Below are positions 5,370-22,511 of a stretch of DNA of 45,397 nt, in pieces; within the stretch, counting starts at the first letter, position 1, and the number at the start of each line of letters is the position of its first letter. Made by a program: the position numbers and the translations under genes. The notes beneath the pieces were generated by a model. The model saw only the letters and a program-made list of their open reading frames with translations, searched no databases and had not been told where the DNA came from. Where the stretch lies: assembly GCA_936941205.1 (NCBI GenBank), contig CAKZJF010000086.1, positions 1 to 45,397 on the forward strand, in the 5' to 3' direction. Origin of the DNA: an uncultured Candidatus Altimarinota bacterium. Lineage in GTDB: Bacteria > Patescibacteriota > Gracilibacteria > BD1-5 > UBA2023.

Positions 5370-5759
5370 TTAAGTTACGGAGGAAAAGTATATGCAGACT
5401 GAATTCTTTTTCCAGTCAAAAAACGAAAAAGCTGGACCGAAGTCCAGCAAGGTTCACGATATGAATGGAAGTTTGGAGTACAAATACGGTACCCAATGCC
5501 ATTCGATGAGTAAAACGGGAGGAAGTGTTATTAGAATTGCATATAACTTCCTTCTATGTAATTCCTGAAGGATAGCCTGACGCTCCTCCACAGGAAGATC
5601 TCCATAGAGCTTTACTGTTTGAGAGTTCATACTCGTAACTGCAAAGAAGAATCCAAATACAACAATGGCAAATGGAAAAGCAAAAGCAATCACGATAGCC
5701 ATAAAAAGATAGAGCATACTCACATACAGCGAGTAAAGTAACTTCCCAATAATAGGCAT
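5370..5759 (-). CDS. small membrane protein, paralog A of three
   Basis: 101 codons run from the ATG at 5759 to a UGA at 5454-5456; with UGA = Gly the frame goes on through the hairpin to TAA at 5370 (129 aa). Two membrane segments (about 6-40 and 75-90) flank a cytosolic-looking stretch with L-P-V-E-E-R-Q-A-I-L-Q-E-L-H-R-R. The end I-E-W-H-W-V-P-Y-L-Y-S-K-L-P-F is shared with the paralogs at 5884 and 6708. Signals are unusually canonical: TTGACA-N16-TATAAC and Shine-Dalgarno GGAGG, 8 bp from ATG. UGA sits just before a terminator, so whether it stops or is read as Gly is unresolved. All three copies have UGA here, which also fits a conserved P-F-x-x-G. No family recognised. Confidence 0.75.
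5421..5448 (-). terminator. intrinsic terminator of paralog A
   Basis: Minus-strand hairpin GCTGGACTTCGGTCCAGC (5448-5431) followed by TTTTTCGTTT. The same hairpin occurs after paralog B and, with one loop change, after paralog C. In code 25 it lies inside the extended reading frame of paralog A. Confidence 0.85.
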
Positions 5760-5787
5760 AGATTTTTCCTCCGGTCATAACGAAATC

Positions 5788-5815
5788 GTTATATATAATC
5801 TATAAATAATGTCAA
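5788..5815 (-). promoter_or_regulatory. consensus sigma-70 promoter of paralog A
   Basis: On the minus strand TTGACA (5815-5810), 16 bp, TATAAC (5793-5788). The ATG at 5759 follows a leader of about 20 nt carrying the ribosome binding site GGAGG, a strong site for this window. Confidence 0.7.
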
Positions 5816-5883
5816 ATAAAAGTGTAGCTCAATTAAACAATCATACTATATATCATTGATATTAAAAAAATACGAGTATTCTT

Positions 5884-6273
5884 CTATGAGAGAGTTATTA
5901 TGATTCGATAGTGAGATATCATATATTCGCAATAAGAATACAAAAAAGCTGGACCGAAGTCCAGCAAGGCTCAAAAAGTGAATGGTAATATGGAATATAC
6001 ATATGGTACCCAATGCCATTCAATCCACGCAATACAAGGAAAGGTAACACAGGCAAGAAAGAACCGTGAAATCTTTTTCTTGTTGTTATTTTTCAACCGC
6101 AGAGCAGAATCAAGTACCATCTGATTCTTATAACGCTCCTCAATAAGGAATTTTGGAAAAAGAAACAAGAAGATAGGAATACACATTGCTATGAGGGCAA
6201 GGCAATATATCCCAATGAAGAGTGCAATAATGAAAAGCACAATCCAGCCTACAATTCTAGCGAATGACCGCAT
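5884..6273 (-). CDS. small membrane protein, paralog B of three
   Basis: 100 codons to a UGA at 5971-5973; reading UGA as Gly extends it to TAG at 5884 (129 aa), through its own terminator. An N-terminal hydrophobic region (about 8-40, I-V-G-W-I-V-L-F-I-I-A-L-F) is followed by a basic stretch K-N-N-N-K-K-K-I and a second hydrophobic segment ending I-E-W-H-W-V-P-Y-V-Y-S-I-L-P-F, the signature shared with paralogs A and C. Promoter TTGACA-N16-TATTCT and ribosome binding site GGAGG four bases before ATG. The gene and its terminator are repeated as a unit beside paralogs A and C, so they arose by duplication. Function unknown; there is no secretion signal cleavage site or known toxin motif. Confidence 0.72.
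5942..5965 (-). terminator. intrinsic terminator of paralog B
   Basis: The same GCTGGACTTCGGTCCAGC hairpin (5965-5948 on the minus strand) followed by TTTTTTG. It begins seven bases after the UGA of paralog B. Confidence 0.85.
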
Positions 6274-6305
6274 GAAACCTCCATGGATAGAAACATAACT
6301 TGTAT

Positions 6306-6333
6306 AGAATAGAATATTTAATTATAATGTCAA
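6306..6333 (-). promoter_or_regulatory. sigma-70 promoter of paralog B
   Basis: Minus strand TTGACA (6333-6328), 16 bp, TATTCT (6311-6306). It precedes GGAGGTTTCATG at the start of paralog B. Confidence 0.6.
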
Positions 6334-6408
6334 TTTATAATAGCAACTATACCATATCATAATTACAGAGTTCTTGCATATAAATAAAAAACATGATAAG
6401 ATATGACC

Positions 6409-6663
6409 ATGTTTAATATAAAAAATATGTTCTGGAAAAAGCAAAATATGCGTATTCTCAAATTCTGGAAACGCTTGGAAGCACTTGCAGTTGGTATTGC
6501 TATGATTCTATTCTGGAAAGGAGTCTGGAATCTTGCAGATCTTTCATTCTGAATTGACTGGCATGGAGCATTTCTTTCATTCTTTCTTGGTATGCTTATA
6601 CTTCTGCTCACGAAAAATTTTATTAAACAATTTCTCCGAGATAAAAATAACGTAGAGGACTAA
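6409..6663 (+). CDS. small two-pass membrane protein
   Basis: 84 aa with one in-frame UGA (F-G-I-D-W). A basic, Trp-rich N-terminus (F-W-K-K-Q, F-W-K-R-L) leads into a first membrane segment A-L-A-V-G-I-A-M-I-L-F-W (about 28-40). A short loop G-V-W-N-L-A-D-L-S-F-G-I-D-W-H-G follows, then a second segment F-L-S-F-F-L-G-M-L-I-L-L-L (about 58-72) and a charged tail. It lies on the opposite strand between paralogs B and C and is not related to them. Promoter TTGCAT-N17-TAAGAT ends about 7 bp before the ATG, so the mRNA is probably leaderless. The stop codon sits in the loop of its terminator. Family not recognised. Confidence 0.75.
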
Positions 6664-6678
6664 ATGTCCTCTTTTTTT
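6654..6678 (+). terminator. intrinsic terminator of the 6409 gene
   Basis: Stem AGAGGAC/GTCCTCT with the gene's TAA in the loop, followed by a run of seven T. Confidence 0.85.
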
Positions 6679-6694
6679 ATTCCACAAAGAGTTT

Positions 6695-6719
6695 AAAAAA
6701 AGCTGGACTAAAGTCCAGC
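6695..6719 (-). terminator. intrinsic terminator of paralog C
   Basis: Minus-strand hairpin GCTGGACTTTAGTCCAGC (6719-6702) then TTTTTTTAAAC. This is the same element as at 5431 and 5948, with loop TT-TA-G. In the paralog C frame the loop supplies a TAG stop. Confidence 0.85.
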
Positions 6720-6998
6720 AAAGAGTCATCCAAGAAATGGAAAGAAGGAATACAGATACCGTATCCACAACCATTCAAGATACAGCGCAAGTGGAAGTGA
6801 AATCGCGAATGAAATCCAACCCCTACGACGCAATTCTGTAAGAATTGAATTTCGATCTTCTGCGCTCATCTCACCATAGAGTCGAACCATCTCCGAATCC
6901 ATGCTCGTACGTGCAATAAAATATGCAAAACGCACAATAGCAAATGGAAAGATGAGGACAAACAACAATAGATAAAAAACAACTGGTATAAACCACAT
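6708..6998 (-). CDS. small membrane protein, paralog C of three
   Basis: 96 aa in code 25, ending at the TAG in its terminator loop (a UGA lies five codons earlier, at the position matching paralogs A and B). Start chosen at the ATG at 6998 because GGAGGTGA lies just before it and an N17-spaced TTGACA/TATAAA promoter is upstream; the longer frame from 7064 would begin inside that promoter. It has an N-terminal membrane segment W-F-I-P-V-V-F-Y-L-L-L-F-V-L-I-F, a middle region M-S-A-E-D-R-N-S-I-L-T-E-L-R-R-R like paralog A, and the shared ending L-E-W-L-W-I-R-Y-L-Y-S-F-F-P-F. Function unknown. Confidence 0.75.
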
Positions 6999-7035
6999 AA
7001 ATTCACCTCCGAAATAGTATTTGTATGACATTCTA

Positions 7036-7064
7036 TTTATAGTGAAAGTTCCAATGGTTGTCAA
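7036..7064 (-). promoter_or_regulatory. consensus sigma-70 promoter of paralog C
   Basis: Minus strand TTGACA (7064-7059), 17 bp, TATAAA (7041-7036), followed by GGAGGTGA before the ATG at 6998. This is the best textbook promoter and ribosome binding site pair among these small genes. Confidence 0.75.
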
Positions 7065-18324: not shown

Positions 18325-19509
18325 ATGTTCCTTGTCTCTACATTTCTATTAAGTTGGCCTTTTATTATAAGAAAGCTACTCCTCTGAATGGCCTTTATTA
18401 CAAGCATTACTTTCTTTCTATTTTTTCAATCAAAAAATATAAACTATCTTGAGGCATCTTTTCTTCTGTCTCTCATGACTTTTATGCCTGTCTTGGCAGA
18501 AATACCAACTGGAGTATTTGCTGATACATACGGTCGAAAAAAATCAATCCTAATAAGCATTTGTATTGAGCTGTTTTGTTTGATAGGAATTGTTTCTACA
18601 CAATCTTTTTTTTTACTAACATGCATTTTTATTATTTGGGGTATAGGTAATACTTTCGCGTCTGGGGCGATAAATGCCTGGGCAATAGAGCGATTCCCTG
18701 AGGAGAGGAAAGATCATCATCTTGAAAATTATTTTGCACTCAACTCTGGAGCATTCAGTGCTGGAATGGTTATTGCTGGTTTAGTTTCAACATTTCTATT
18801 AACCTATTATACCCATGATTCTATTTGGTATTTTCGAATAGGAATCACTATAATTTGATTGATTACCCTTTTTTTTATTCATGAAAATTTTAAAAGAGAC
18901 TATGAATGAAGTCATACATTTGCTCTCTTTAAAAAAAATATATATTCTGGTTTTCTGGTATTTAAAAAAACACGTATTTTACGCTATCTTATTTGATCGG
19001 AATTTCTTCTTTCTATAGCACTCTTTCTAGTGTCATGAGCTGCTATGCAGAGTTTCTTATGAGATGCATGACTCAAAGAAAATGCTTGGTGAAGCATTTA
19101 TTCAATAACAGCACTCGTTACCATAGGGATTCCGATTTTGACCCTTAAGCTGGTATCCTATTTCAAAAAGAAGACAACTTATCTTACGATTATACTTATT
19201 TTACAAGCAATAATATTCTTTCTCAGTACCCTATTTATCAACCCATATTACGCAGCATTTCTTCTATTCTTTTACAATATTTCTGAAGATCTTTTTAATC
19301 CCATATCCTCAGGATTATTTCATAACAATATTTCATCGAATGTAAGGGCTACTATAGAGTCATTTCAATCTACTCTCCTCAATATCTGATATAGCATAGG
19401 AATGTTATCAGGTTGATTTATTGCCCAGTATCTTTCATGGTCAACGGTAATGATTATTTCTCTCTTCTTTTTTCTTGGTTCTGCCTATCTTTATAGACAA
19501 GCAGAATAA
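18325..19509 (+). CDS. major facilitator superfamily transporter
   Basis: 394 aa in code 25 with many in-frame UGAs. It has about 12 membrane segments. The motif-A-like loop after TM2 is clear: L-A-E-I-P-T-G-V-F-A-D-T-Y-G-R-K-K-S, as in drug/H+ antiporter-like MFS members. G-A-I-N-A-W-A-I-E-R-F-P follows in TM4/5, a pattern seen in putative multidrug or peptide exporters. A standard-code start at 18388 would cut off TM1; the ATG at 18325 restores it. It reads towards the radical-SAM/peptide cassette, whose first gene begins 121 bp later. Unlike that cassette it uses UGA for Gly freely, so it looks native. It may export the peptide product (inference), or may be unrelated. Confidence 0.9.
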
Positions 19510-19588
19510 CTTATTTGTAGATATAACTTGCTTTTATTATAAATTTAATTATAAATCAACATAATGATTGCAAAATCTTGCATTCGTC

Positions 19589-19602
19589 ATGTTAATTAAC
19601 AT
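19589..19602. promoter_or_regulatory. 14-bp palindrome in the leader of the radical SAM cassette
   Basis: ATGTTAATTAACAT, perfect dyad, 28 bp before the first maturase ATG and downstream of TTGCAA (19569-19574). It may be an operator; no T-tract follows. Confidence 0.35.
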
Positions 19603-19630
19603 CTTCAAAAACAAATCTTAGGAGATCACC

Positions 19631-20974
19631 ATGCGTGAATCATATACCTTACATCGTACAAATAATTGCGTTGTAATTCCTATCAGGAACGGAAGTCACT
19701 TGATATATAATCGACTTCTGAATAATCCGATTGTTCTGGATTCTGACTCGTTTGCATTCTTTATGAGTCTGACATTCATTACTTTTCCACTCACTCTTTC
19801 TGAGGATAAACACGAACTTGTCATATTTCTCATTGAAAATGGATATTTCTTCAAGGAAGAAACTGACGAGTCTACCATTCTCAAAAACTCCCATACAAAG
19901 CATCTTTCTGATCTTTCGAGCGGAAAAACGCTTGTAGCGCTTGATCTTCGAATCTCAGAGAAATGTAACTTCGGTTGTAAACACTGTATTGTTGGTCAAA
20001 GTGAAAAAAGTAAACCCCTCATGAAAGAGCAAATGGCTATCGATGCTGTGAATGCATTTATGGCTTGTTCAAAAACAGGGGGAATTGATCTTCACTTTGG
20101 GAATGCTGAACCATTTCTCAATTTTAACGTTCTTCAAGCTACGTATAACCATCTCAATGAACATTATCCCGATGCAGAGAAACGAGTATCGGTAAATACG
20201 AACCTTTCCCTCTTGAATGAAGCAAAGGCACAATTTCTTACTCAATCAGGAATTACCACTTATGTATCACTTGATGGTGAAAAGCCAGCGAATGATGCGA
20301 TTAGAATCTTCAAAAAAGGTGGAGTTGGAACGTACGATGTTGTAATGGAAAAAATGAGTCTCCTCGAGAAATATGGACATCCTATTGAAGGAATTAGTGT
20401 AACAGCTACGGATCAAAACTATCAATTCTTTGGTCCAAATTTCATTGATTGGTGTCATACACGAGGATACACTTCACTTGGTTTTGATTTTGACCTGATA
20501 AATCCACTTTCCATCAGCGTGGATGAACGGGTTGAAATCCTTCATTCCATGTGGATTCGGGCAGAAGAATTGGGTATGGAATTTTTTGGCACTTGGATGA
20601 CTCCATTTATCAATATTACCAGTAAATCCATCATGCAAGAAGAGTATGCGTTTTGTAAAGGAATCCATGGACGAGCTATTTCCATAGATGGAGATGGGCA
20701 AATTCATATCTGTGGTTACTCCGATACAATGCTCGGACATTTCTCGAAATTGCATGAAAGTATTCAACCGGGTGGGAAACTCTATGCCCTCGTTGAATCT
20801 CGTTTGGTTGGGAATGTATCGCATTGTCACGGTTGTGAAATCGAAGGTGCTTGTGCAGGACAGTGTTATGCAACTTGTGAAAGTTCTCAACAAAAAGCAA
20901 GTGAACAATGTATCTTTTACCGAAAGGTGACCAAAAAATTCCTGGAAACATATGCAGGAATGGAAGAATCGTGA
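19631..20974 (+). CDS. radical SAM/SPASM peptide maturase 1
   Basis: 447 aa to the UGA at 20972. Residues 1-95 form a separate N-terminal domain possibly used to bind a precursor. The radical SAM core starts at L-D-L-R-I-S-E-K-C-N-F-G-C-K-H-C (C112, C116, C119), ligating the 4Fe-4S cluster that cleaves S-adenosylmethionine; H-F-G-N-A-E-P is the GGEP-like strand. The C-terminal SPASM region has C342, C361, C399, C402, C408, C412 and C427, enough for two auxiliary clusters. Such enzymes make C-S, C-C or other crosslinks in ribosomal peptides. The start has an AGGAG site. No UGA occurs among roughly 38 glycines, and UGA seems to be the stop: in code 25 the frame would run to TAA at 21112, across the peptide gene. 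Probably acquired from a standard-code donor. Confidence 0.92.
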   Translation: MRESYTLHRTNNCVVIPIRNGSHLIYNRLLNNPIVLDSDSFAFFMSLTFITFPLTLSEDKHELVIFLIENGYFFKEETDESTILKNSHTKHLSDLSSGKTLVALDLRISEKCNFGCKHCIVGQSEKSKPLMKEQMAIDAVNAFMACSKTGGIDLHFGNAEPFLNFNVLQATYNHLNEHYPDAEKRVSVNTNLSLLNEAKAQFLTQSGITTYVSLDGEKPANDAIRIFKKGGVGTYDVVMEKMSLLEKYGHPIEGISVTATDQNYQFFGPNFIDWCHTRGYTSLGFDFDLINPLSISVDERVEILHSMWIRAEELGMEFFGTWMTPFINITSKSIMQEEYAFCKGIHGRAISIDGDGQIHICGYSDTMLGHFSKLHESIQPGGKLYALVESRLVGNVSHCHGCEIEGACAGQCYATCESSQQKASEQCIFYRKVTKKFLETYAGMEES

Positions 20975-21005
20975 CATTATATTATTCAGAAAGGAGGTGA
21001 TAATC

Positions 21006-21074
21006 ATGGCTTTCCGCAAGCTCAAAGCAGTCCGCGCTGCTTCCATGCAGTCGAAGCGTCAGAATTGCTGCTAA
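21006..21074 (+). CDS. 22-aa basic peptide ending NCC, putative RiPP precursor
   Basis: ATG at 21006 to TAA at 21074. The peptide begins M-A-F-R-K-L-K-A-V-R, has a small-residue middle A-A-S-M-Q-S and ends K-R-Q-N-C-C. It has six Arg/Lys, no acidic residue, and its only two cysteines are the last two residues. The ribosome binding site AAAGGAGGTGAT (20990-21001) is an almost complete complement of the usual 16S rRNA 3' end and lies a few bases before ATG, by far the strongest in the window. The codons (CGC, CTC, GTC, AAG, TGC) are richer in GC than neighbours. Placed between two radical SAM/SPASM genes, it fits a precursor peptide; the Cys pair would be the likely modification site. Alternative: a short translated leader. 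No homolog recognised. Confidence 0.72.
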   Translation: MAFRKLKAVRAASMQSKRQNCC

Positions 21075-21123
21075 TTTCTCCATGAAAATGGATGGGATTC
21101 AGTAAGTTCTAACAATTAAAACC

Positions 21124-21157
21124 AATGGGGGAATGCTATGCATTCCCCCATTTTTCT
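21124..21157 (+). terminator. strong hairpin/attenuator between peptide and maturase 2
   Basis: AATGGGGGAATGC (21124-21136), loop TAT, perfect complement (21140-21152), then TTTC. It lies 50 bp after the peptide stop and 13 bp before maturase 2. Partial termination here would make more peptide than maturase 2 transcript. Confidence 0.75.
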
Positions 21158-21169
21158 TGAAAGAACATC

Positions 21170-22495
21170 ATGGAAGATTTTCAAATACCAAGCCCATATC
21201 TTGAGGCAGTAAAACAAATCAATGGCAATGTATTACTATTCCATCGTATATTTGGTGGATATATTTGCCTAAGTTCACAGCAATACTTGGACTTTACTGA
21301 AAAAAAATATCACAAAATTGATTTTCAGACGCAACAAAAGTTAGATGCATTACATTTTTTCATTTCTTGTAATGAACATGAAAAGGAAAAGTACACATCG
21401 TTACTAGCATCGAGAACTTCCAATGCTCAAAGTGGAGATAACCTCAGATGTCTTGAGCTCTCTGTCAGTGAAAGTTGTAATTTCCGGTGTACATACTGCA
21501 CATTTTGGCGAAATAAAGCTGAAAAAGGTGTCAGTGTTATGCATCCAAACATTGCGGTTTCCATCGTTCAGGATTTCATTGCTACATTACCAAAAGAAAG
21601 AAGAAATGGCAAGCGGCCACTTATTTATTTTGGAACAGGAGAACCCCTCCTGAACTGGAAGGCAATAAAAAAAGTGGTTGAATATGTTCGGGGTATTCCA
21701 GGAGGATCTGAGATAAATCTCAGCCTGATAACCAACGGAAGTCTCGTAACAAAAGAAAAGTTGGAATTTCTCAAGCTTCATAATGTATCTGTGGGGATTT
21801 CACTCGATGGACCACCTGATATACAACGCATACAACGGCCAGCAGCATCACCGAATGTTGATAGCGGAACGGTTGTGCTTGATGCGTTGTGTTTAGCTCG
21901 GGAAATTGGATTTCAATTTTCCAGCCTCAGTGCAACCTATGATACTCCAGGGTTTGAACAACACGCTAGGTACGTTCTTGATCTTTGCAGCGAATACTCT
22001 ATTCCTGAATTTGATCTCGATTATGACATTGGCAGTCTGCATGAAAATTCAGATGTTGAACAAATCTCTGAAGAGATTCTTGCTTGTTACTATGCAGCAC
22101 GAGCAAGAAATATCGGTGTCTTCGGATACTGGATTGTTCCGTATGAGAATATTATTCAAAATAAAAAAAACATTCCTGAGTTCTGTCAAAACTACTCAGG
22201 GGAAAGTGTTTGCATAACGCCAAAAGGTGAATTTAAACTTTGTGGCTATGAACCGGCAAGTATTGGAGCCTTTTCCAATATCCGAGCAGCACTGAAATCC
22301 AAAGTATATCCTGAAAAGATATTACTGAATGAACAAAGTGTTCTCAAATCTTGCAAAAATTGTGAAATAGAAGGAGTTTGTGCTGGGCAGTGTCCAATTT
22401 CGCCACGTAATACGGTAAGTTGGAGCTCAGGTTGCGAACTGTATCGAATGATCACAAAAAAACTTCTCCAGAATCATCTGGATTCAATCCCCTGA
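21170..22495 (+). CDS. radical SAM/SPASM peptide maturase 2
   Basis: 441 aa to UGA at 22493. The plan equals maturase 1: N-terminal domain (1-90), radical SAM motif S-E-S-C-N-F-R-C-T-Y-C-T-F-W (C103, C107, C110), strand Y-F-G-T-G-E-P (the GGEP motif), I-S-L-D-G-P-P, then SPASM cysteines C339, C348, C358, C395, C398, C404, C408 and C422, with C-K-N-C-E-I-E-G-V-C-A-G-Q-C closely matching maturase 1 (C-H-G-C-E-I-E-G-A-C-A-G-Q-C). The two are diverged paralogs and may act on the same peptide in turn or as a pair. No internal UGA. The final UGA lies in the loop of a terminator; under code 25 the frame would run through the tRNA and antisense to rplK to 22918, which is implausible as a real protein. 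Confidence 0.92.
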   Translation: MEDFQIPSPYLEAVKQINGNVLLFHRIFGGYICLSSQQYLDFTEKKYHKIDFQTQQKLDALHFFISCNEHEKEKYTSLLASRTSNAQSGDNLRCLELSVSESCNFRCTYCTFWRNKAEKGVSVMHPNIAVSIVQDFIATLPKERRNGKRPLIYFGTGEPLLNWKAIKKVVEYVRGIPGGSEINLSLITNGSLVTKEKLEFLKLHNVSVGISLDGPPDIQRIQRPAASPNVDSGTVVLDALCLAREIGFQFSSLSATYDTPGFEQHARYVLDLCSEYSIPEFDLDYDIGSLHENSDVEQISEEILACYYAARARNIGVFGYWIVPYENIIQNKKNIPEFCQNYSGESVCITPKGEFKLCGYEPASIGAFSNIRAALKSKVYPEKILLNEQSVLKSCKNCEIEGVCAGQCPISPRNTVSWSSGCELYRMITKKLLQNHLDSIP

Positions 22496-22511
22496 AAAGG
22501 GGATTTTTTTA
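22486..22511 (+). terminator. intrinsic terminator of the radical SAM cassette
   Basis: AATCCCC, loop TGAAAA, GGGGATT then a T-run. The loop contains the UGA that ends maturase 2, which supports UGA being the original stop. Confidence 0.88.

Follow-up and report, generated by a model that had tools for sequence, protein, structure and literature searches.

Do two radical SAM/SPASM (rSAM/SPASM) enzymes and the 22-aa open reading frame (ORF) between them form a RiPP system, and can such a system operate in a bacterium that reads UGA as glycine? We analysed a 45,397-nt stretch of DNA, referred to here as the window (contig CAKZJF010000086.1), from an uncultured Candidatus Altimarinota bacterium (Gracilibacteria; BD1-5; UBA2023) that uses genetic code 25 (UGA = Gly). 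The genes of the locus lie in the following order, all on the + strand:

18325–19509, +: MFS exporter gene of the drug-efflux type (Pfam MFS_1, 8e-27), with 10 TGA codons for Gly, ending in TAA
19631–20974, +: maturase 1 (m1), an rSAM/SPASM enzyme of 447 aa (Cys motifs, profile matches and AlphaFold fold), ending in TGA
20990–21001, +: near-perfect Shine–Dalgarno sequence of the peptide gene, AAAGGAGGTGAT, as read from the sequence
21006–21074, +: candidate precursor peptide of 22 aa, MAFRKLKAVRAASMQSKRQNCC, with the place and size of the precursor ORFs of relatives, ending in TAA
21124–21152, +: 13-bp terminator-like hairpin 3′ of the peptide gene (−21.9 kcal/mol, z −5.5), with a T-rich stretch after it
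21170–22495, +: maturase 2 (m2), an rSAM/SPASM enzyme of 441 aa (Cys motifs, profile matches and AlphaFold fold), ending in TGA
22486–22505, +: intrinsic terminator that closes the cluster and overlaps the m2 stop codon TGA, with the same core retained in a remnant of the locus in genome G076

An earlier note on this DNA had placed m1, the 22-aa ORF, the hairpin, m2 and the terminator on a single strand, and all were found as it described them. We consider it likely that the MFS gene, m1, a basic 22-aa precursor, a terminator, m2 and a second terminator together form a small RiPP cassette, in which the peptide would be the substrate, the maturases would provide the chemistry and the MFS protein would provide export.

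The peptide contains six Lys or Arg residues and neither Asp nor Glu, and ends in SKRQNCC. Its start codon is the only ATG in the whole 45 kb window with AGGAGGTGA in front of it, and its gene is present in a single copy in the genome searched. Because of the hairpin at 21124–21152, the peptide is probably made in larger amounts than m2, and equivalent hairpins are found 3′ of the precursor genes in the two related loci that were checked (L019 and L038). Elsewhere in the window (5370–7064, − strand), three ORFs in tandem encode small membrane proteins that look paralogous and have WHWVPY-like and LLDFGPAF-like stretches in common.

Maturases and their relatives in CPR bacteria

Both enzymes carry a CxxxCxxC motif and a seven-cysteine SPASM domain, the features generally expected of rSAM/SPASM RiPP maturases. 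In m1, the rSAM motif is CNFGCKHC (C112/C116/C119) and the SPASM cysteines are C342, C361, C399, C402, C408, C412 and C427; in m2, the corresponding residues are C103/C107/C110 and C339, C358, C395, C398, C404, C408 and C422. Searches with NCBIfam profiles returned no equivalog model at or above its cut-off for either enzyme, in keeping with the earlier note, which knew of no described family with such a precursor between two maturases. The top model for both, the PapB ranthipeptide maturases (NF047865), scored 97 (m1) and 87 (m2) bits against a cut-off of 340; sulfatase maturases and the other named families were rejected, with every match far under cut-off. A phage or plasmid origin of the enzymes was also rejected, as the matches were only weak and of a generic rSAM kind.

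The AlphaFold models (pLDDT of 76.6 for m1 and 72.4 for m2) have as their best match in the PDB TigE of Paramaledivibacter caminithermalis (8VPO; TM scores of 0.72 and 0.77), followed by the structures of CteB, and a sequence search of the PDB also placed 8VPO first for both. We therefore model m1 and m2 as RiPP maturases of the TigE/CteB type, in agreement with the earlier note. That note had also suggested looking for a RiPP recognition element (RRE) in the N-terminal domains. The predicted strands and helices there follow an RRE-like order, and the match to TigE and CteB spans the full length; however, a Pfam search of m1 and m2 gave no PqqD/RRE match. On the basis of the models, the domain may be RRE-like.

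To place the enzymes, we searched 353 genomes of the class and further CPR samples of 380, 55, 3 and 393 genomes, and scanned GTDB genome contigs with a pattern, which gave 18 loci. Relatives of the maturases are rare, occurring in around 1% of the genomes of the class and the CPR samples. The main clade with full-length enzymes comprises 19 loci (L016–L029, L038 and L047–L050) from many CPR lineages. All 19 have, directly 3′ of the single maturase gene, a mostly basic short ORF of 24–35 aa, usually preceded by a strong Shine–Dalgarno sequence, which ends in T-C-x-x-x-S-N-C-[H/K/R]; the T-C-x-x-x-S-N-C part is invariant. The smallest precursor (L038 in G619) is 24 aa long, nearly down to the 22 aa of the window peptide. 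Close copies of the precursors differ at 79, 62 and 131 sites at codon positions 1, 2 and 3, respectively. A nucleotidyltransferase or GNAT gene lies downstream in all 19 loci, as read from the ORFs (five were confirmed in Pfam as Polbeta/NTP_transf_2 and GNAT). We found no description of this TCxxxSNC family in NCBIfam or in the open-licence literature.

The scan of more distant relatives for a short ORF covered L031 and L014, leaving out L039; none was present in the part of L031 that was scanned, and L014 had none with a Shine–Dalgarno sequence. L014 (1643–3727; G012) encodes a 694-aa rSAM/SPASM protein in code 25, distantly related to m1 and with a long extra N-terminal region; an ABC-transporter-like ORF lies downstream.

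The earlier note had made its proposal hinge on a short ORF being conserved beside the enzymes. The closest enzymes do have one (19/19 loci), each of them in a one-enzyme cluster; a second intact m1–peptide–m2 locus was not found among the class genomes, the CPR samples and the GTDB scan. The same evidence from position supports the 22-mer as the substrate, whereas for homology between the peptides the signal is slight: in an anchored PSSM comparison, the C-terminal similarity of the 22-mer to the precursors of the relatives was weakly above that of shuffles and near chance (p 0.012–0.068). The 22-mer and those precursors have in common the Asn at the third and the Cys at the second position from the end, as well as the charge, the size trend and the position in the locus. 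In the relatives, the last residue is His, Lys or Arg and a second conserved Cys stands six residues before the first; the 22-mer, ending in SKRQNCC, has no counterpart of this second Cys and does not fit the TCxxxSNC[H/K/R] ending. The proposal that the two terminal cysteines are both crosslink sites thus loses ground, as only the first of them is common to the relatives.

The two maturases score 144 bits against each other, and each scores higher against the clade of the relatives (up to 203 bits for m1 and 158 for m2, over the full length and at about 28–29% identity). In the tree, both form long branches outside that clade, and a sister duplication of the two is neither favoured nor rejected (p-AU 0.25). 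Given identities of only about 28% and this placement, function can be transferred only weakly from the relatives to m1 and m2. We favour the reading that the window locus works like the TCxxxSNC clusters, although it is not one of them.

Stop codons and ancestry of the locus

The reading frames of m1 and m2 close at TGA, whereas the 24 other genes in the window all end in TAA or TAG. In those 24 genes, TGA accounts for 28% of the Gly codons, compared with none of 60 in m1 and m2 together. The absence of UGA-Gly was rejected as an argument for foreign origin in itself, because serS and a DEAD-box gene also lack it; the argument is carried by the UGA stops. In the genome (99% complete), RF1 is the only class I release factor found (PNT and GGQH motifs); no RF2 was found, the prfB model remaining under its cut-off. 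Gracilibacteria have likewise been reported to have RF1 only (PMC6851277). In such a cell, translation would be expected to continue past the UGA that closes m1 and m2, and the system may be non-functional. Read in code 25, m1 is extended by 46 aa, crossing the peptide ORF out of frame, and m2 runs through its own terminator; there is no backup stop near the TGA of m2. UGA-free genes compatible with the standard code are known from predicted phages of Gracilibacteria, with backup stops nearby (PMC10746230).

The maturases look as if they were acquired from an organism that uses UGA as a stop, and may be poorly expressed in their host; they do not look like native genes of a UGA-Gly bacterium. 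The conflict makes the locus a clean case of genes crossing a border between genetic codes. The same genome also encodes, in code 25, a His-Xaa-Ser (Hxs) system (L042:283–7238; G000:C82, about 66280–73240), with an HxsB match of 508 bits (cut-off 370), an HxsD-like ORF at 40.6 bits (cut-off 50) and a repeat protein that ends in repeated HGS units and for which the HxsA matches are sub-threshold.

The MFS gene of the window is present in only 2 of the 353 class genomes; both have m2, and in both the gene adjoins the m2 locus. The MFS gene suggested earlier as the exporter is thus tied to the locus, and export of the product would be consistent with this linkage. The second genome (G076; Candidatus Gracilibacteria STA_21, of a sister genus) encodes an MFS protein that is 64% identical, with a truncated m2 about 1.9 kb downstream that corresponds to residues 249–441 (74% identity) and is followed by the same terminator. 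No match to m1 or the peptide was found in G076. For comparison, identities between the window genome (G000) and G076 are 79% for rplK and 44% for serS; set against those of the MFS protein and m2, they favour neither a vertical nor a horizontal origin. G076 has two serS-like genes (C4:69047–70336 and C1:209620–210888), one of which has many in-frame TGA codons and the other none. Between G000 and the remnant, the dN/dS of m2 is about 0.13, indicating that m2 has been under purifying selection somewhere. The MFS gene next to m2 is plainly in code 25 in both genomes. In a further locus (L030:3311–4417), m2-like and MFS fragments face each other and adjoin a recombinase-like ORF, which suggests mobility.

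These observations bear on the strongest rival explanation, that the locus is imported DNA, dead or on its way out: coming from an organism with UGA as a stop, it would not be correctly expressed in a UGA-Gly cell and would yield no product here. The terminal UGA codons in a genome in which no RF2 was found, the nonstop mRNA expected from m2, and the remnant in G076 all fit this explanation. However, 2.7 kb of reading frames remain intact, m2 shows purifying selection, and a code-25 MFS gene accompanies it in both genomes. We regard it as a serious possibility, a little short of even, and it is compatible with our preferred account of the origin of the genes. The best reading overall is that of a rare, horizontally spread RiPP cassette that occurs patchily, and is in decay, within this UGA-Gly family.

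Proposed pathway and alternatives

With gene order, enzyme type, conservation of the neighbouring ORF, MFS linkage and the UGA conflict observed directly, we infer how substrate, modification site, export and biological role may fit together. The precursor would probably be produced in excess from its strong Shine–Dalgarno sequence, and its basic N-terminal part may be bound by the RRE-like domain of one or both maturases. Radical chemistry would be directed at the C-terminal -QNCC by m1 and perhaps m2, most likely at Cys21 because this is the Cys of the NC common to the relatives. The simplest guess is that Cys21 or Cys22 forms a thioether with a neighbouring carbon. The modified product would be exported via the MFS protein; in the relatives, the nucleotidyltransferase or acetyltransferase may serve self-protection.

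Alternatively, the peptide could be a scaffold, as in PQQ and mycofactocin, from which a small molecule is excised after modification of the C-terminal residues and exported by the MFS protein, with the nucleotidyltransferase or GNAT of the relatives modifying or neutralising the product. The very short precursors, their conservation at the extreme C terminus, the small-molecule-type neighbours (Polbeta/NTP_transf_2 and GNAT) and the drug-efflux-like MFS protein are in keeping with this. We consider it unlikely, as no protease or oxidase gene adjoins the locus and the enzymes are nearer to TigE and CteB than to PqqE or MftC.

It is also improbable that the short ORF is incidental and that m1 and m2 act on a peptide or protein encoded elsewhere. 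This would account for the near-chance similarity of the 22-mer to the precursors of the relatives and for the lack of an intact orthologous locus among those searched; it would not account for a strong Shine–Dalgarno sequence, a site between two co-directional maturases, a terminator of its own, the right size and charge, and a position shared with the ORFs of 19 related loci. Finally, m1 and m2 could be rSAM enzymes that modify proteins and have no peptide product, such as the anaerobic sulfatase maturases that the earlier note had raised against itself. The enzymes do resemble anSME in fold and match the sulfatase-maturase model TIGR03942 at 56 and 74 bits. The possibility is nevertheless very slight: these scores are far under the cut-off of 349, TigE and CteB fit better, and no sulfatase was noticed among the window ORFs.

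If the RiPP cassette reading is extended to the relatives, the loci may encode a class of CPR natural products that has yet to be described. The precursors (22–35 aa) would be among the smallest for rSAM/SPASM enzymes, leaving very little space for a separate leader, and their C-terminal Asn-Cys would be modified by TigE-like enzymes. The products might serve as antibiotic-like weapons of tiny episymbiotic or predatory bacteria, with self-protection by acetyl- or nucleotidyl-transferases or MFS proteins, in a system that moves between genetic codes. We put this forward tentatively, as a possibility that we rather doubt. The prevailing view is that CPR bacteria grow attached to other cells or at their expense; to our knowledge, the peptide natural products recorded for them are few. 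In CPR, graspetides have been predicted (PMC8939145).

Comparison with known systems

TigE is the closest match to m1 and m2 in both structure and sequence, the N-terminal domain included; identities in the structural alignments are only 17–23%, and TigE belongs to a different pathway. PapB provides the best NCBIfam model and links Cys to Asp/Glu (PMC9413430). We rejected a PapB-type linkage for the window peptide, as it contains no Asp or Glu; together with scores well under the cut-off, this sets the locus apart from PapB ranthipeptides. The precursors of thuricin CD and ruminococcin C are longer and contain more cysteines. Their clusters each have two rSAM enzymes (PMC12093266, PMC8188230), as does the window, whereas the RumMC model of ruminococcin C reaches only 58–59 bits on m1 and m2 (cut-off 720). 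With the TCxxxSNC clusters, the window locus has in common the type of maturase, a mostly basic short ORF with a Shine–Dalgarno sequence after the maturase gene, the Asn-Cys near the end of the peptide and, in the two loci checked, the terminator-like hairpin after the precursor. It differs from them in having two enzymes rather than one, 22 aa rather than 24–35 aa with a second conserved Cys, and an MFS gene rather than a nucleotidyltransferase or GNAT neighbour. Both the one-enzyme clusters and this two-enzyme variant could yield new radical chemistry.
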